A stretch of 64,000 nucleotides of DNA from Varunaivibrio sulfuroxidans. GTDB lineage: Bacteria; Pseudomonadota; Alphaproteobacteria; Rhodospirillales; Magnetovibrionaceae. The stretch is taken from assembly GCF_029318635.1 (NCBI RefSeq), contig NZ_CP119676.1, forward strand, positions 636,614-700,613. Reading direction: 5' to 3'. Under the pieces are notes generated by a model. That model ran no database searches. It was not told the origin of the DNA and saw only the letters and a list, made by a program, of their open reading frames with translations. Shown piece by piece: positions 54,765 to 63,817 of the stretch (positions within the stretch are counted from its first letter, which is position 1; the number at the start of each line of letters is the position of its first letter). The position numbers were made by a program, and so were the translations under genes.

Positions 54765-55754
54765 TTACAAGGGGACGATCCGGCTTTCGTCGAAGGTGAA
54801 AGTCATCGTCTGCCCCGTGTCGAAGGGACGTGCGCTATAGAACTGAACGTCCAGGCCCTGGAAAGCCGCCGTGATCTCGTAGCGGTCCTCCAGGAAAACA
54901 CAATTGAGCACCCGGGCTTCATGGCCGGTTTTATCGTCCTGGACAATAAATGCGCCGCGCGGCGCCAGAACCTCGACATCGGCGCGGAGATCGCCACCGA
55001 GGACCATGGCGGCGGGTAAAATGTTTCCCGCATCCAAAAAGCGCGCCGTCCAGGCATCCTTCGGCTTCCTGAACAGAACTTCCGGGATCGCGCATTGATG
55101 CACGACGCCATCCTTCATCAGGGCTATTCGGTCGGACAGGACCTGGGCCTCGCGCCGGTCATGGGTGACGTTGACGCAGGTCAGTCCCAATTGTTTCGAA
55201 ATTAAGCGAATTTCCCGGCCCAACTCGACACGCAGGTTGGCGTCCAAATTGGACAACGGTTCGTCGAATAGGATGACTTTCGGCTCGCCGGCCAGGGCGC
55301 GAGCGATCGAGACCCTCTGTTTTTGACCACCCGATAACTGTTCGGGCACTTTCTTGGCGTGTTCGCCCAGGCGCACGATATCCAACACCTCACCGACCCG
55401 GCGTGCGATGCGCGCCCTCGGGACCTTCGCCATCTTCAGCGGGAAGGCGACATTCTCCGCGATACTAAGATGCGGCCAAAGACCATAGTCCTGAAAAACG
55501 AAACCCAAACGGCGGCGTTGCGGGGCGACGAATACCCCCCGCCGGCTATCGACGAAACAGTTTTCTCCGATGACCAGTTTCCCCTCATCCGGGTGTTCCA
55601 ATCCGGCGATGATGCGTAAAAGCGTCGTTTTTCCACATCCCGACGGCCCCAGCAGGGTCATGAAATCCCCTGCGGCGACATCCAGATCGATGGCGCGCAA
55701 AACCTGTTCCGAAGAGAAGGCCTTCGAAATACCGCGAAGTTCAAGCGCGCTCAT
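54765..55754 (-). CDS. ABC transporter ATP-binding protein (FbpC/AfuC/PhnT type)
   Basis: This 329-residue ATPase has Walker A GPSGCGKTT, the signature LSGGQKQRVSIARALA, Walker [13 protein letters not shown] and switch region VNVTHDRREAQVLSDRI, followed by a TOBE domain of about 90 residues. The class serves Fe(III), sugar-phosphate, or aminoethylphosphonate importers. It overlaps the permease gene by four bases. Confidence 0.9.
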   Translation of the reverse strand: MSALELRGISKAFSSEQVLRAIDLDVAAGDFMTLLGPSGCGKTTLLRIIAGLEHPDEGKLVIGENCFVDSRRGVFVAPQRRRLGFVFQDYGLWPHLSIAENVAFPLKMAKVPRARIARRVGEVLDIVRLGEHAKKVPEQLSGGQKQRVSIARALAGEPKVILFDEPLSNLDANLRVELGREIRLISKQLGLTCVNVTHDRREAQVLSDRIALMKDGVVHQCAIPEVLFRKPKDAWTARFLDAGNILPAAMVLGGDLRADVEVLAPRGAFIVQDDKTGHEARVLNCVFLEDRYEITAAFQGLDVQFYSARPFDTGQTMTFTFDESRIVPL

Positions 55755-57448
55755 CCGGGGCCTCCCTGCCGCCCGCCATACAGGCCTTGGCCGAGGGCGA
55801 TAATCGCCCCCGAAAAAACAATCGCCACCAGACTCATCGCCATGCCCGATCCGATCGATCCTTGATTGAACTGGTTGAAGACGTACGTCGCCACCGTTTC
55901 GACGCCGGGCGGAGCCAGCATGATCGACGAAACCAGTTCGCGGGTGCTGATCGCGAACACGATCAATCCGGCGGCCAGGGCGACCGGCCCCAGCAGGGGC
56001 GACAAGACCCGCACGACCAGCGTAAATTCGCTGGCCCCGGAGACGTAAGCGGCGTCGTCCAACGATCGGGGGAGCTGCCTAAGCGCACCGGTGAGCAGAC
56101 GAATGGGATAAGGCAGCATCAAGCACAGGTAAGCCAACAGCAAAACCACGGGGGTGTTGTAAGGCGTGACCGGCCAAAACGGCAAATTCCAGGTCAGTAT
56201 CAAACCCACCGCCACCGCCATGCCGGGGATCGAACTGGGCAGGATTGACAGGAAATCCAGAGCGGCGCTGCCGCGAAAACGCATACGCACCGTGCTGAAG
56301 GCGACCAACAATCCGATCAATACGGTCAGAACCGCCGCCGAAATCGCCAGGGTCACGCTGGTGAGGATCGCCCGCCAGGCGGCCGAGCCGCCCTCGAACA
56401 ACCCCACCAGATGGGCCAACGACAAGTTCGACCAGGTTACCCCGCCGCTGACGGTATTCATCAGGGCCATGATCGTCACAGTCGCCACCGGCAACGCCAC
56501 GGCGAGAAAAAACACCCCGGCGAACAGCATGTTGACGAGAACCTGAAAGCGCCGGGAACGATCGTCGCCCGGAGCGGTCAGGATTTGATTTTCAACCCGC
56601 GATTCAAATTTTTTCGAAAGCGCCCGATTGCCCTGATAGGCGACGAAGGCGATCGCGATCAAGATCATCGACAATACCGACGCCCCCGACAGGTCGATCG
56701 GCCAGTCGGTGAATTTTTCATGGATCAAGGTCACGATGACTTCATAGCCAAAGCGATTTCCCAGAATGGCGGGGGTGCCGAATTCCTCGATCGTCAGAAC
56801 GAAGACGATCAGCGCGCTGGACAGCACCGCCGGAACCGTCATCGGCAAATGAATGCGCCAGAACAGGGACAGGGCGCGGGCGCCGAAGACCTTGGCGGCG
56901 TCGCCGTAGCGCCGACCGATGAGGGCGAACGATTTGGCCGCGGCGAAGTAGATCAAGGCGAACAGGTGCAACGCCATGACCAAAACCATGCCCCAGAAGG
57001 AATAGAGCATCCCATCCAGATTGAGGCCCGATACCTGCTGCATGAACCCGTTGCGTTGCAGCAACTGCATCCAAGCCAGCGATCCGATGTACGGCGGTAT
57101 TAAAAAGGGAACCAGAAAACACCCGTCCCAAACGCGCCCCCAGCGCGGCGTTATGCGCACGCGCAGATACGCCAGGGGAAGTGCGATGACGACACAGACC
57201 GCCGTCACCGCGCTCGACAGTTCCAGAGAACGCGCGATCGCGCCGGTCAAACGTGCATCGCGTAGACTTGGCGCCAGGGCGCTAAAGGGCGCGGCGAAAG
57301 ACAACGCGTTGAGATCGGGGAACACCGCGAACGCCACGATCGCCAAGACCGGCAGCCCCACGATCACCGCCAACACCGTCGTCGAAAGAAAAAAGAAGGC
57401 CGGTCTCAGGTTCCGGCCTTCTTCGCGAACCTGCGGGGAGAAGATCAT
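55751..57448 (-). CDS. ABC transporter permease, two fused membrane domains (FbpB/AfuB/PhnUV type)
   Basis: The 565-residue protein has about twelve transmembrane segments in two homologous halves, each with an EAA loop (first half near VFGARALSLFWRIHLPMTVPAV, second near YVSGASEFTLVVRVLSPLLG), split by a hydrophilic stretch around residues 275-300. One polypeptide therefore forms the whole channel, as in FbpB. It overlaps the binding-protein gene by four bases. Confidence 0.9.
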   Translation of the reverse strand: MIFSPQVREEGRNLRPAFFFLSTTVLAVIVGLPVLAIVAFAVFPDLNALSFAAPFSALAPSLRDARLTGAIARSLELSSAVTAVCVVIALPLAYLRVRITPRWGRVWDGCFLVPFLIPPYIGSLAWMQLLQRNGFMQQVSGLNLDGMLYSFWGMVLVMALHLFALIYFAAAKSFALIGRRYGDAAKVFGARALSLFWRIHLPMTVPAVLSSALIVFVLTIEEFGTPAILGNRFGYEVIVTLIHEKFTDWPIDLSGASVLSMILIAIAFVAYQGNRALSKKFESRVENQILTAPGDDRSRRFQVLVNMLFAGVFFLAVALPVATVTIMALMNTVSGGVTWSNLSLAHLVGLFEGGSAAWRAILTSVTLAISAAVLTVLIGLLVAFSTVRMRFRGSAALDFLSILPSSIPGMAVAVGLILTWNLPFWPVTPYNTPVVLLLAYLCLMLPYPIRLLTGALRQLPRSLDDAAYVSGASEFTLVVRVLSPLLGPVALAAGLIVFAISTRELVSSIMLAPPGVETVATYVFNQFNQGSIGSGMAMSLVAIVFSGAIIALGQGLYGGRQGGPG

Positions 57449-58425
57449 TCGCCGCGCATGACCTTGGCGAAATGATCCTTGGTGGCGGCGGCGTGATCGG
57501 CGGCGGCGACGTAATCCATCTTAATCAAATGCAAGGCGTCCCAACCGGCCCGCTTGGCCACAACGTCCGTGCGCGCGGGAAGGATATAGCGCGCGGCGAC
57601 GAGACGCTGTCCTTCCTTGGAGAGCACGAAATCGACAAACGCCTTGGCGGCGGCGGGATGGCGGGTCGATTTCAAGATCATGATCGGGCGGGGCGCCAGA
57701 ACGGTGCCCTCGCTGGGATAGACGATATCGATCGCTTCCCCCTTCATCTTGGAACCGATGGCGATGTAATCGACGGCGCCGAAGACGACGCCCTTGGCCC
57801 CCTGCAAGACCGGGGTCAACGCCGCCTTGTTGGCGCCGGGAACGATCATGCCGTTATCGTGCAACCCTTTGAACATCGACCACGCCTGCGCGCCGTCCTT
57901 GTTGACCAGTCCTTCGACCAGGGTCAACGCCGAGCCCGACTTCGCCGGATCGGGCATCGTCACCTGCCCTTTGTACGCGGGGCGGGTCAAATCGGACCAA
58001 TGCGCGGGGGCCGGCAATCCCGATTTGGTATTGTAGGCGATCGCCAGCGCCGCCGCGCCCTCGGCGACATAAGTCGGCGTCTTCAGGTCGGCGGGCACAT
58101 GGGCCGCGCCCGGCGAGGTATAGGGCAGCAACTCGCCCGCCTTGTCCAGGGTGATGGCGTGCCCCCATGACGCCGAAATCAGGACATCGGCGTGGGGATT
58201 GGCCTTTTCCGCTTGATAGCGGGCCATGACCTTGCCCGACGAGGACTGAAACAGGCTGACCTGAAGGCCGGTCTTTTTCTCGAAGGCCTTGACCAGCGCG
58301 CCGGACAACGGCTTCGGCCCGGCGCTGTAGACAACCAGGGGGTCCGCCGCGAACGCAGGCACGGGCGCGGAAACAAGAGACGACGCAAGCATGGCCAAGG
58401 CCATGGCGGTAAACGTTTTATGCAC
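57445..58425 (-). CDS. ABC transporter substrate-binding protein (FbpA/AfuA/PhnS type)
   Basis: The 326-residue precursor has a signal peptide ending about residue 26 (PAFA) and then DPLVVYSAGPKPLSGALVKAFEKKTGLQV, the usual start of type 1 iron-type receptors. The paired tyrosines that bind ferric ion in FbpA are not visible at the expected place: the segment reads VFGAVDYIAIGSKMKG. An anionic substrate such as a phosphonate or sugar phosphate is therefore as plausible as iron. A Pho-box-like site precedes the gene, and the neighbouring ugp operon transports a phosphate ester. Confidence 0.85.
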   Translation of the reverse strand: MHKTFTAMALAMLASSLVSAPVPAFAADPLVVYSAGPKPLSGALVKAFEKKTGLQVSLFQSSSGKVMARYQAEKANPHADVLISASWGHAITLDKAGELLPYTSPGAAHVPADLKTPTYVAEGAAALAIAYNTKSGLPAPAHWSDLTRPAYKGQVTMPDPAKSGSALTLVEGLVNKDGAQAWSMFKGLHDNGMIVPGANKAALTPVLQGAKGVVFGAVDYIAIGSKMKGEAIDIVYPSEGTVLAPRPIMILKSTRHPAAAKAFVDFVLSKEGQRLVAARYILPARTDVVAKRAGWDALHLIKMDYVAAADHAAATKDHFAKVMRGE

Positions 58426-58535: not shown

Positions 58536-58937
58536 TCATTTTTTTTCGACCAGCTCGATCTTATAGCCGTCGGGATCTTCGATGAAGGCGATCACGGTGG
58601 CGCCGTGCTTCATCGGGCCGGGCGGACGCGGGATCGGCACGCCTTCGCTTTTCATCGCCTCGCAAGCGCCATGGATATCGGGCACGCCGATCGCCAGATG
58701 GCCGAAGGCGGTGCCTAAATTGTAAGACTCCGCCTGATCCCAGTTGTGGGTCAATTCGATCACCGTGTGGCTGTTCTCATCCCCATAACCTAAAAAACAC
58801 AAGGTAAATTTTCCCTCGGGATAATCGCTGCGGCGCAGTACCTTCATGCCCAGGTGACGGGTGTAGAAATCGATCGACTTTTCCAGATCGAAAACCCGGA
58901 TCATGGTGTGCAGGAAGCGAAAGTTTTGAGTGTCCAT
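58536..58937 (-). CDS. gloA: Lactoylglutathione lyase (glyoxalase I)
   Basis: GloA converts the methylglyoxal-glutathione hemithioacetal to lactoylglutathione. The 133-residue protein has the four metal ligands His10 (FLHTMIRV), Glu61 (VIELTHNW), His80 (FGHLAIGV) and Glu128 (GYKIELVEKK), and the length of the short, Ni-type bacterial enzymes. It starts three bases after the lpxB stop, with GGGAGA inside the lpxB end as ribosome-binding site, so it is the tail of the lipid A operon. Confidence 0.95.
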   Translation of the reverse strand: MDTQNFRFLHTMIRVFDLEKSIDFYTRHLGMKVLRRSDYPEGKFTLCFLGYGDENSHTVIELTHNWDQAESYNLGTAFGHLAIGVPDIHGACEAMKSEGVPIPRPPGPMKHGATVIAFIEDPDGYKIELVEKK

Positions 58938-58940
58938 GGT

Positions 58941-60935
58941 CTATTCTCCCATTCTGCTTTCGACGATATCGACAAGACATTTGGCCGCGCGCATTCCCGG
59001 AGACGGTCCGCCCAAACCTAGTTTTTCCAGGGCCGCTCCCGCATCTTCGATCTGGCGGCGACGCGCGGCGGCGTCATCCATCAGGCGCGCAACGGCGGCG
59101 CATAGAAGCTCGGGGCGGCAACGCTCGTTGAGAAATTCGGGGACCGCCTCGCGGTCCAGGATAATATTGATCAGGTTGGCGAAGCGCACACGCACCAAAC
59201 GCCGCGCCAGCCAGACCGTCAACGGGTTCAGTTTATAGGCGATGACCGTGGGCGTCTTGGACAGCGCCAGTTCCAGCGCCACCGTGCCCGAGGCGGCAAG
59301 CGCCACGTCGGTCGCGGCAAGGGCGTCGTACTTATCCTTTACCCCGATAACGATGCTGACCGAAAACGGCCAATCCCGCGTGGCGGCGCGCACATCGTCC
59401 AAGCGGGCGGCGACACAGGGGATCACGACGTGGAATTCGCCCTTGTCGCGCGCTAAAAGAGTCAAGGCGCGCGCAAAAACCGGCAACATCTTAGAGGTTT
59501 CACTGTGCCGCGATCCGGGCAACACCGCGACCAAGGTCGTCGCCGGCGCGATCGCGTGATCCGCGCGAAAACGCGCCCCGTCCCCCGCATCGGCGCCGCT
59601 TTCGACGATCGGATGACCGACAAAGGTCGCCGCCAACCCCGCCTTTTCGAAATAGGGCGGCTCGAACGGCAACAGGCAGAGCATGTGATCGAGGAAGCGG
59701 GCGACTTTTCGCGCCCTGCCCGCCCGCCACGCCCACACCGTCGGCGCGACGTAATGGACCAACGCAATCCCCACCCCCTTCAACTTGCGCGCCACACGAA
59801 AATTGAAGTCCGGGGCGTCGATGCAAACCAGACAATCGGGGCGCTCCCGGCGCACGGCGCGGGCGGTCTCACGAATGCGCCCGATCAGGGTCGGTAATTT
59901 CGGCAACACCTCGGCCAGCCCCATGACGCTCAGTTCGGACATGGGAAACAAACTGTCGAGCCCTTGCTCGGCCATCCGCACCCCGCCGATCCCGGAAAAA
60001 TGCACCCGATCGGCATAGATCTCCCGCAATGACGCCATCAGGCGCCCTCCCAGTTCGTCGCCGGAAGGCTCGCCGGCGATAATAAAAAAGTGTCGGCGGC
60101 GGAGGTCCGCGATCTCCCCGGAGGACATCCCATAAACGAACAAACCCGCCTTGTCGGCGGCGGCGATCACCGCATCCCGATCGACGATCAGCGCACCTCC
60201 CGCCTCGACGGCGATACCGGTCAACCCCGCCTTGCGGGCATTTTCGATCGTATCGACACCGATGGTCGGCAGATCGACGCGGCGTTCCTGGCCGGGCTTG
60301 GAAATTTTCACCAAAACCCCGCGGGTTCGCGCGCCCGCCTGCGACGCGCCCAACTTCGCCATCATGGCGTCCGTGCCCAAACGGTCCTCGCGGGCGATGA
60401 CGTCCCCGCCGCGGGCGATCGCCGCCTGCCCGATATCGCGCCGCCCCAGGTTCCACGCCGCCCCGGCGGCGATACGCATGTCGGCCAAGGCATCCTCCGT
60501 AGGGCGAGGCGTACCGAGCACGCCGGCACGGGCCAAAAGATCGTGCAGCACGTCGTGGACACCGATAATGCGAAAACCTTCATCCCGTTCAAGCGTGCGC
60601 ACGACGGAGCACAGCAGCCCGTCGTCCCCCCGGGAGAAAGCGCCGCCGAGGGCAAAGCGCAAGGTGCGCAGATCGGGCCATAAATGGGCGAGCGAGGGGC
60701 GGCGGATCGCCCCGGCCATCACCAGTTCACGGACGCCCTCGCGCTTAAGAACGGCGATCGCCCGCCCCGCCGCGCCCAAACGTATCCAGGCATGAGGCGT
60801 GTCCACGACGGTCTCACGATCCGTTTGTCCGTTAAAGGCGATAACGAAAAAATCGCGTCCGCTGTCTCGGCACGCCCGGATCAGGCGCGCCGGAAGCGCG
60901 CCGCCACCGGCCAGAATGCCCAGTTTAGGCTGCAT
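58941..60935 (-). CDS. lpxI-lpxB: LpxI-LpxB fusion: UDP-2,3-diacylglucosamine pyrophosphatase / lipid-A-disaccharide synthase
   Basis: One frame of 664 codons encodes two successive enzymes of lipid A synthesis. Residues 1-268 are LpxI (KLGILAGGGALPARLIRACRD at the start, LGTPRPTEDAL, VKISKPGQERRVDLPTIG, ENARKAGLTGIAVEAGGALI), which hydrolyses UDP-diacylglucosamine to lipid X. Residues 283-664 are LpxB (FFIIAGEPSGDELGGRLMASL, VDIDAPDFNFR-type CIDAPDFNFRVA, YVAPTVWAWR, FVGHPIVES, VLPGSRHSE, ASGTVALELAL), which joins lipid X with UDP-diacylglucosamine. A 14-residue linker (SSGEIADLRRR) joins them. An in-frame ATG (Met270) lies in the linker, but its Shine-Dalgarno signal is weak. Elsewhere in alphaproteobacteria the two are normally separate neighbours. 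It overlaps lpxA by 11 bases. Confidence 0.93.
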   Translation of the reverse strand: MQPKLGILAGGGALPARLIRACRDSGRDFFVIAFNGQTDRETVVDTPHAWIRLGAAGRAIAVLKREGVRELVMAGAIRRPSLAHLWPDLRTLRFALGGAFSRGDDGLLCSVVRTLERDEGFRIIGVHDVLHDLLARAGVLGTPRPTEDALADMRIAAGAAWNLGRRDIGQAAIARGGDVIAREDRLGTDAMMAKLGASQAGARTRGVLVKISKPGQERRVDLPTIGVDTIENARKAGLTGIAVEAGGALIVDRDAVIAAADKAGLFVYGMSSGEIADLRRRHFFIIAGEPSGDELGGRLMASLREIYADRVHFSGIGGVRMAEQGLDSLFPMSELSVMGLAEVLPKLPTLIGRIRETARAVRRERPDCLVCIDAPDFNFRVARKLKGVGIALVHYVAPTVWAWRAGRARKVARFLDHMLCLLPFEPPYFEKAGLAATFVGHPIVESGADAGDGARFRADHAIAPATTLVAVLPGSRHSETSKMLPVFARALTLLARDKGEFHVVIPCVAARLDDVRAATRDWPFSVSIVIGVKDKYDALAATDVALAASGTVALELALSKTPTVIAYKLNPLTVWLARRLVRVRFANLINIILDREAVPEFLNERCRPELLCAAVARLMDDAAARRRQIEDAGAALEKLGLGGPSPGMRAAKCLVDIVESRMGE

Positions 60936-61725
60936 CGTCCAACTTGGGCCGGCAGATCGCCCGCGATGAATCGGCGCGAATGAAATCGACGATTTCCATC
61001 ACCGGCTCGACATCCTTGAACATTTCCGCCACGTCGGCGATGCGTTCGCTCATGGTGCCTTCCTGGGCGAATAAAACGCGATAGGCATTGCGCATGGCAT
61101 GGATAGTTTCCCGGTCGAAATTTCGCCGTTTCAACCCGACGAGGTTCAGCCCCGAAAGATGGGCCCGATTACCGACCACCGAACCGTAGGGAATGATATC
61201 GTGTTCGACGCCGGACATCCCGCCGATCATGGCATGGCGACCGATGCGCACGAATTGATGCACCGCGCACAACCCACCCAAGATCACCCAATCCTCAACG
61301 ACGACATGACCGGCCAACGTCGCATTGTTAACTAAAATAACATTATCTCCAATCACGCAATCGTGCGCGACGTGGGCGCCGACCATAAACAGACAATTAT
61401 TGCCGACGCGGGTCACCATGCCGCCGCCCTGGGTGCCGGGGTTCATGGTGACGTGCTCGCGAATAACGGTGTTGCAGCCGATCTCAAGGCGTGACGGCTC
61501 GCCGGCATATTTCAGATCCTGCGGCTGTAAGCCGATCGAGGCGAAGGGGTAAATCTTACTATTGGCGCCAAGCGTCGTGCGCCCGTCAATGGCGACGTGA
61601 GAAACCAACGTCGCACCATCGCCCAGGTGAACCTCGGGGCCGACAGAGCAAAATGGGCCGACCGTGACATTCTCGCCAATGGTGGCGGTTTGGGCGACGA
61701 TAGCGTTAGGATGGATGGTTGTCAT
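60925..61725 (-). CDS. lpxA: UDP-N-acetylglucosamine acyltransferase
   Basis: LpxA adds the first 3-hydroxyacyl chain to UDP-GlcNAc in lipid A synthesis. The 266-residue protein shows hexapeptide repeats of a left-handed beta-helix (IGENVTVGPFCSVGPEVHLGDGATLVSHVAI), the catalytic His in VGAHVAHDCVIGDN, and GLNLVGLKRRNFDRETI at the C-terminal helical domain. The start MTTIHPNAIV at 61725 is two bases after fabZ. Confidence 0.96.
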   Translation of the reverse strand: MTTIHPNAIVAQTATIGENVTVGPFCSVGPEVHLGDGATLVSHVAIDGRTTLGANSKIYPFASIGLQPQDLKYAGEPSRLEIGCNTVIREHVTMNPGTQGGGMVTRVGNNCLFMVGAHVAHDCVIGDNVILVNNATLAGHVVVEDWVILGGLCAVHQFVRIGRHAMIGGMSGVEHDIIPYGSVVGNRAHLSGLNLVGLKRRNFDRETIHAMRNAYRVLFAQEGTMSERIADVAEMFKDVEPVMEIVDFIRADSSRAICRPKLDDAA

Positions 61726-61727
61726 TA

Positions 61728-62192
61728 TCAATTGTCCACGATCATGGCGGCGAAAACAGCCTCGGCGACGAGCACGTCGCCGACAAAGGCGTTGCCCTGG
61801 AACTTCCACACGTTGGCCCGCTGGCGCTTCTTTTCAACGACAAAGCGCACGGTGTCGCCGGGCGTGACAGGTTTACGAAAGCGCGCCTGATCGACCGACA
61901 TGAAATAGACCAGTTTGCCCTCGGCCCCTTTACCCATGGTGCGCACGACAACCACCGCCGCCGTTTGCGCCATCGCCTCGATCATCAGCACCCCCGGCAT
62001 TACCGGGTGCCCCGGGAAATGACCCTGAAAGAAGGGCTCGTTAATGGTCACGTTTTTGACTCCCGTGGCGCCGACATCGGGCGTGATATCAACGACGCGA
62101 TCAATCATCAAAAACGGGTAACGGTGGGGTATCATTTCCATGATCCGAACGATATCAATGCTTTCGGCAACAGTATTTGTCTCAGGACTCAT
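61728..62192 (-). CDS. fabZ: 3-hydroxyacyl-ACP dehydratase FabZ
   Basis: FabZ dehydrates 3-hydroxyacyl-ACP in fatty acid elongation and competes with LpxA for the same substrate. The 154-residue protein has the hot-dog fold with [16 protein letters not shown] (catalytic His) and [24 protein letters not shown] (catalytic Glu). ATG 62190-62192 gives the family start; the longer frame to 62252 runs into lpxD. It overlaps lpxD by four bases. Confidence 0.96.
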
Positions 62193-63235
62193 CGGATGGA
62201 CCCCTTGTCTTTCTTCTTTGTCAATGTACCCAGGCGGGCGACCTGCCGCCAAAAATCCTTCGCTGCGATGGCGGGGGAGCCGGCGACCGTGGCGCCGGGG
62301 GCGATATCGCGCATCACACCGCTTTGCGCCGCCATCCGTGCGCCATCGCCGATCGTCAAATGCCCGGCGATTCCGACTTGCCCCCCAGCCACGACATAAT
62401 TGCCCAGCTTCGTGCTTCCCGATATTCCGACCTGAGAGACCACGAAGCAGCCTCTTCCCATCTGTACGTTGTGCCCGATTTGGACCAGATTGTCGATCTT
62501 ACAACCATCGCCGATCATGGTGTCCGGCCCCGTTCCCCGGTCTATCGTGGTATTCGCGCCAATTTCGACGTCGTCACCAATCAGCACACGTCCCAACTGC
62601 GGAATTTTCAAATGATCGAGACTGCCGGGCGGGCGGGCGGGGGCGAAACCGAAACCGTCCTGCCCTATCCGCGCGCCGGGATGAACGATCGCCCGCGCGC
62701 CGACCCGACTAAACTGAACCGTCACATTGGCGCCGATCCGGGCGTCATCGCCGATGACCACGCCTTCGCCGATCACTGTATTGGCGCCAATGTGGCAACG
62801 CGCGCCGAGTTCCACGCCCTGCGCGATGACGACCCCGGCGTCCACCCGACACCCCGCCCCCAAACGTACGGTGGGATCGACATACGCCGAGGGATGGACC
62901 GTTTCGGCGGGCGTCGTCATCGGGTAAAACGCCTGGGCGAGACGCGCATAGGCGCGATACGGCTCGTCGGTCACCAACAAGACCATACCCTCCGGCGCAC
63001 GCGGAGCTAAATCGGGATGCACGATACATGCGCCCGCCTTGCTTGCCGCGAAGGCGGCGGCGTAATTCTTATTGTCCAGAAAACTAATCTCGTCAGCCTC
63101 GGCCCGGTCCAGTGGCGCGACATCCCTGATCCGCCTGCTCTCGTCGGCGCAACGCGAAAGTTCGGCCTTGGCGATATCGGCGATTTGGCGAAGCGTCAAC
63201 GGACCCGCACAACTGAAAAAACGGGGATCCGCCAT
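62189..63235 (-). CDS. lpxD: UDP-3-O-(3-hydroxyacyl)glucosamine N-acyltransferase
   Basis: LpxD adds the second 3-hydroxyacyl chain to lipid A precursors. The 348-residue trimeric hexapeptide-repeat enzyme has an N-terminal substrate-binding domain (about 1-110), the helix repeats, and the catalytic His in [23 protein letters not shown]. It follows skp by three bases and overlaps fabZ. Confidence 0.96.
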
Positions 63236-63238
63236 GAC

Positions 63239-63817
63239 TTATTTATCCGGTTTGGCGACTTTGAAGGCCGGCAGTTTTTTGTCTAAACGTTCCAGGACAA
63301 TATCGGAAATGTCCAATGCCGTCGCATAAAAAATGGTTTGCTGCGCGTTCAACACCAGCGTTAGATGATTTTCCTCGGACACCTTTTTAATAACCTCGAT
63401 CAAGGCCTTGTTGATCGCCTCGTTGGCGGCGAGGCGAACCTTGTTGAGGGCTTGCAAGCGCTGCTGAACCTCGGCTTGAACCTTGCTCAGACGTTGTTCG
63501 AATTTTCGCCGCTCGGCGGCATAAGCCTCCGGAGCAAGGAGCGTGCGCTTGCGGTTCAATTCCTGTTCAACGCCACGCAGAGTATCTTCTTCCTTCTTGA
63601 TATCCTGTTGGATGGCGTCGTGATATTTTTTGATCTGTTCGCCGACATTTTTCGTGACCTTCGCCTTGGCCCGAATCATATCGAGATTAAGCAACGCAAC
63701 CTTGACCGCAACCTCTCCGCGGGCAGGCGCCGTTCCGGTCTTTTGTTGCGCGAAGGCCGGAGGGGTCATCGCCAATGTGACCAACGTAAATAAGGCGGCG
63801 AGGAATGTACGCATCAC
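63239..63817 (-). CDS. skp: Periplasmic chaperone Skp (OmpH family)
   Basis: Skp holds unfolded outer-membrane proteins in the periplasm before BamA inserts them. The 192-residue precursor has a signal peptide ending about residue 23 (PAFA), then a short N-terminal strand (VALLNLDMIRAKAK) and a long helical coiled coil (about 55-140), followed by VIKKVSEENHLTLVLNAQQTIFYA and LDISDIVLERLDKKLP. It lies between bamA and lpxD as in many Gram-negative bacteria. Confidence 0.93.
   Translation of the reverse strand: MMRTFLAALFTLVTLAMTPPAFAQQKTGTAPARGEVAVKVALLNLDMIRAKAKVTKNVGEQIKKYHDAIQQDIKKEEDTLRGVEQELNRKRTLLAPEAYAAERRKFEQRLSKVQAEVQQRLQALNKVRLAANEAINKALIEVIKKVSEENHLTLVLNAQQTIFYATALDISDIVLERLDKKLPAFKVAKPDK

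Follow-up and report, generated by a model that had tools for sequence, protein, structure and literature searches.

An lpxI-lpxB gene fusion in Varunaivibrio sulfuroxidans that recurs among the Alphaproteobacteria

A single gene combining a complete LpxI with a complete LpxB was found in the window, that is, in the whole stretch of 64,000 nucleotides of Varunaivibrio sulfuroxidans DNA analysed here, and this fused gene very probably gives rise to a single bifunctional polypeptide. The best explanation for this arrangement, in which we place reasonable confidence, is that one bifunctional chain holds LpxI and LpxB at a 1:1 ratio at the membrane, where both draw on a shared pool of UDP-diacylglucosamine.

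The Fused Gene and Its Domains

The fused gene occupies positions 58941-60935 of the window (minus strand) as a single ATG-started open reading frame of 664 amino acids, without any internal stop in frame 0. The LpxI half covers residues 1-271 (60123..60935, minus strand) and the LpxB half covers residues 282-664 plus the stop codon (58941..60092, minus strand); both are complete. They are joined by a linker of ten residues, 272-281 (SGEIADLRRR; 60093..60122, minus strand). This gene is the sole copy of lpxI and of lpxB in the single-contig genome of the organism.

The in-frame fusion of LpxI and LpxB, as claimed in a preliminary description of this DNA, was borne out by matches in Pfam, NCBIfam, and the PDB and by intact catalytic residues in both halves. 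The Pfam domains LpxI_N (residues 4-133, E 2e-34) and LpxI_C (137-268, E 3e-38), both above their cut-offs, were followed by LpxB (284-624, E 1e-97). The lpxB equivalog of NCBIfam, TIGR00215, scored 264.8 bits (cut-off 190.25), and the LpxI model NF047836 was matched over its full length (E 1e-66) with 225 bits, below its cut-off of 400 bits. Relatives of known structure were LpxI 4ggm and 4j6e, over residues 2-271, and the E. coli LpxB 5w8n and 5w8s, over residues 283-621.

The LpxI half contains the residues corresponding to Q169, T187, K214, and D225 (C. crescentus numbering), the last of these being the catalytic Asp221 of the window protein, and none of the four varies among the 54 fused loci. 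In the same way, the equivalents of D98, W126, R201, and N316 (E. coli numbering) were all present in the LpxB half. The first three are invariant in the 54 fused loci, and N316 was found in 53 of them, with an alignment gap in the remaining one. Judging from these residues, the fused proteins look like functional bifunctional enzymes. At N74 (C. crescentus numbering), where the solved LpxI has an asparagine in contact with glucosamine, the window protein has Ala; the relatives vary here as well, with A, S, or G in fused loci and P, R, G, or K in separate ones.

An AlphaFold2 model, built with 64 sequences, reached a mean pLDDT of 93.1 and a pTM of 0.82. In this model the linker forms a short helix (residues 272-279, pLDDT about 85) between the last strand of LpxI and the first strand of LpxB. 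The LpxI half superimposed on the UDP-diacylglucosamine-bound form 4j6e with a TMt of 0.90. For the LpxB half, the comparison of this monomer model with 5w8n gave a TMt of 0.72 with a high rmsd, such as the C-terminally swapped LpxB homodimer could produce. No conclusion on domain orientation was drawn from this monomer model, which lacks an interdomain error map.

Gene Neighborhood and Source of Lipid X

The fused gene lies within a normal cluster, in the order lpxD, fabZ, lpxA, lpxI-lpxB, and gloA, all on the minus strand. The open reading frame of lpxA (60925..61809) probably has its true start inside these bounds, at MTTIHPNAIV, and its last 11 nucleotides are shared with the beginning of the fused gene, as in the median case among the relatives. 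The reading frame of fabZ (61728..62252) likewise has a probable internal start; lpxD lies at 62189..63235, and gloA, coding for a lactoylglutathione lyase, is found immediately 3' of the fusion (58536..58937). The open reading frame upstream of lpxD (63239-63817) resembles skp/ompH by sequence and position and had no NCBIfam match. A set of ABC transporter genes (binding protein, double permease, and ATPase) is located at 54765-58425 (minus strand) and is similar, below the family cut-offs, to uptake systems for iron or 2-aminoethylphosphonate.

LpxK is present in the genome, and a search directed at LpxH found none above the family cut-off there; LpxI is therefore the expected source of lipid X. 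An LpxH-like calcineurin phosphoesterase (35.7 bits, far under the LpxH cut-off) was observed elsewhere in the genome, at L253:1351-2238 (about 2776154-2776837 of contig C1), and its gene adjoins a glycosyltransferase-like gene.

Distribution and Origin of the Fusion

The preliminary description had proposed an alignment with related genomes to see whether the fusion was shared by a clade. When this comparison was carried out, the fusion proved to be absent from the closest relatives and recurrent across the Rhodospirillales and other Alphaproteobacteria. None of the 15 other genomes with a match in the family of the window (f1) carried it, their lpxI and lpxB mostly sharing an ATGA or sitting a few bases apart, and the fusion was consequently rejected as a marker of the clade of the window.

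In the order Rhodospirillales, the fusion was found in at least 51 of the 286 genomes with a match, a count made up of 48 uninterrupted cases, one found by hand (G215), and two, G060 and G186, that run into contig ends. In some groups the fusion was universal, both in family f6 (6/6) and, among the genomes with a match, in the genera g35, g89, and g92; in the genera g47 and g114 the fused and separate states were mixed. Outside the order, the class sample contained four more fusions (G514, and the small genomes G370, G491, and G586), and a thin sampling of the Pseudomonadota (398 genomes, E 1e-100) yielded none outside the Alphaproteobacteria.

Two peculiarities were noted in family f19. In the genomes G194 and G195, of 1.3-1.4 Mb, lpxI and lpxB adjoin on opposite strands, the genes being in tandem in nearly all other genomes examined. 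Furthermore, the Gly of the conserved first LpxB motif (IAGEPSGD) is changed to Cys (VVAC, LIAC, or VIAC) in L173, L174, L220, and L251, a group that includes both fused and separate forms.

The history of the fusion was analyzed on an unrooted tree of 214 distinct loci, calculated with the linker left out. The fused state (54 rows) required 18 changes on this tree, compared with 48 when the labels were shuffled; 14 of the 18 were forced by well-supported branches, and the fused loci formed 18 separate all-fused clades. A single origin of all fusions was rejected (AU p = 2e-6, better model, 55 loci), and a common origin of the window fusion and that of family f6 was not rejected (AU p 0.525, 55 loci), so these two could share one origin. 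An unrooted tree does not distinguish gains from losses; this one nevertheless indicates that the fusion arose or was lost many times and was then kept across whole genera.

Comparison with Other Gene Pairs of the Operon

A fusion of this kind should arise readily, given that the usual arrangement of lpxI and lpxB is an overlap of four nucleotides (ATGA) or an in-frame abutment. Among the separate pairs, 84 overlap by exactly 4 nucleotides and 37 are already in the same frame; at the junctions of L003 and L005 the stop codon is followed directly by an in-frame ATG, leaving these loci one substitution short of fusion. In L016 and L018, lpxI and lpxB share the same frame and are unusually far apart, at 168 and 126 nucleotides, respectively.

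Frequent fusion by single mutations, the product working just as well as the separate enzymes and drifting in and out without consequence, is accordingly a possible, if somewhat unlikely, explanation. The arrangement of the separate pairs fits with it, as do the unconserved linkers and the mixture of both states within g47 and g114. Nevertheless, it does not readily explain why fusions have been retained across whole families and genera, nor why other pairs lying just as close in this operon were never found fused. At the same loci, fusion was observed in 0 of 212 lpxA-lpxI pairs, 0 of 117 fabZ-lpxA pairs, and 0 of 90 lpxD-fabZ pairs, even though 190 of the 212 lpxA-lpxI pairs and 103 of the 117 fabZ-lpxA pairs overlap or lie no more than 15 nucleotides apart. 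The difference between lpxI-lpxB (48/286 fused) and lpxA-lpxI (0/212) was significant (Fisher p 5e-13), the two samples compared not being the same. Hence, closeness alone does not account for the fusion of lpxI and lpxB, and a general tendency of the operon to fuse was rejected by these three controls. LpxA, FabZ, and LpxD may tolerate a tethered partner less well; in the case of a C-terminal partner of LpxA, this would weaken the lpxA-lpxI control.

Linker, Junction, and Internal Start Signals

The linkers of the fused loci vary widely in both length and sequence. Given these great differences, nothing suggests a conserved channel between the two active sites, and the variation argues against a precise one.

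The preliminary description had also pointed to an internal ATG at Met270 (60126..60128, minus strand) that might allow some free LpxB to be made. The ATG exists as claimed, but the alignment, the Shine-Dalgarno energy, and the loss of starts in the fused loci make it a weak candidate for such a role. Production of two proteins, a full-length one and free LpxB, through initiation at this ATG or at the TTG of codon 265, or through cleavage of the linker, is accordingly very unlikely. Met270 aligns with the conserved hydrophobic residue (V, I, or M) of the last LpxI strand (VVGMKP* in L097, VTGM in L086), and not with the lpxB start of the relatives, and its interpretation as a former lpxB start was thus rejected. 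The energies of the Shine-Dalgarno duplex were weak, with -2.2 kcal/mol at ATG270 and -3.0 kcal/mol at TTG265, and the helix modelled for the linker also speaks against two products.

The junctions were compared in a set of loci in which the fused ones had been chosen on purpose, so that its 55 fused loci out of 217 are not a frequency. A start codon was missing from the junction in 18 of the 55 fused loci and in only one of the 162 separate loci. An ATG was present in 10/55 and 124/162, and a good Shine-Dalgarno sequence in 9/55 and 87/162, respectively. The internal signals for lpxB initiation are therefore eroded in the fused loci.

A sequencing or assembly error that merged two genes, to which the unfused state of the rest of the family might point, was rejected as extremely unlikely, since each half is as long as expected, the same fused architecture occurs in dozens of other, independent assemblies, and neither of the two remaining frames contains a stop close to the junction. 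In the surrounding region, frame +1 is interrupted at codons 256 and 299 alone, and frame +2 stays open between codons 118 and 355, so that one indel error would not conceal a normal LpxI end. The frames were checked with regard to the case raised in the preliminary description, an error hiding a stop codon or frameshift between residues 268 and 283, and no normal end of LpxI was found in either of them.

Discussion

LpxI converts UDP-diacylglucosamine to lipid X, which LpxB links to another molecule of UDP-diacylglucosamine (PMC5785501, PMC6286764). In the fused protein, the N-terminal half would hydrolyse UDP-2,3-diacylglucosamine to lipid X, and the C-terminal half would then condense this product with a further UDP-2,3-diacylglucosamine, giving the lipid A disaccharide. 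Both halves would use the same membrane-borne substrate, for which the best use would be half and half. Since this substrate is shared, joining the two enzymes would set the division of the pool at one LpxI per LpxB and would retain lipid X at its place of use. The chain with both enzymes at a fixed ratio at the membrane, which we prefer as an explanation, would profit from exactly this, and on balance we lean towards a real benefit of the fusion through either co-localisation or ratio. The recurrence in many lineages suggests that joining these two lipid A steps can be useful.

Purified LpxI retains bound lipid X (PMC5785501), and in A. baumannii the build-up of the shared detergent-like substrate is toxic (PMC4985137); together, these two reports make a hand-over of lipid X attractive. 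The ideas of a 1:1 ratio and of lipid X transfer are both plausible. A more far-reaching version remains doubtful: that the tethered LpxB receives lipid X straight from LpxI, and that the two enzymes make up a minimal lipid A disaccharide synthase, which evolved repeatedly in Alphaproteobacteria by keeping the detergent-like intermediate from escaping and by balancing the use of the shared donor.

Caulobacter and most Alphaproteobacteria encode LpxI and LpxB separately, in an lpxA-lpxI-lpxB operon. The fusion has the same gene order, domains, and catalytic residues; what differs is that a single polypeptide would take the place of two closely coupled ones, and that the stop of lpxI and the start of lpxB have disappeared. 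The LpxC-FabZ fusion of Bacteroidetes, Chlorobi, and Verrucomicrobia (PMC3087551; NCBIfam PRK13188) likewise unites two neighbouring lipid A-related genes in a bifunctional protein. However, LpxC and FabZ have no common intermediate, whereas LpxB uses the product of LpxI as its acceptor and the two draw on one donor; a further difference is the scattered and recurrent occurrence of the LpxI-LpxB fusion. Adjacent operon genes of one pathway were joined as well in metabolic fusions such as hisNB and hisIE (PMC8305728); the intermediates of these operon-derived fusions are soluble, while that of LpxI-LpxB is a membrane-bound detergent-like lipid. The long LpxB model NF002173/PRK01021 (610 amino acids) also describes an LpxB with an N-terminal extension, but its match to the window protein was confined to the LpxB part, with 220.7 of the required 1033 bits, and the extension found here is LpxI.

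No report of an LpxI-LpxB fusion was found by phrase searches of the searchable literature, whose coverage did not extend to the founding LpxI papers, and the architecture may already be on record in domain databases. As operon-derived fusions are known, LpxC-FabZ among them, the interest of LpxI-LpxB lies in its recurrence and its specificity for this pair. Two molecules of UDP-diacylglucosamine yield one disaccharide, and LpxI and LpxB thus compete for, and jointly consume, the same lipid; it is precisely this pair that has been linked repeatedly, and not its equally close neighbours. The fused proteins offer structural biology a covalently tethered LpxI-LpxB assembly, and the many fused and separate relatives constitute a natural experiment on whether lipid X is passed directly or whether a fixed ratio of the two enzymes is sufficient.
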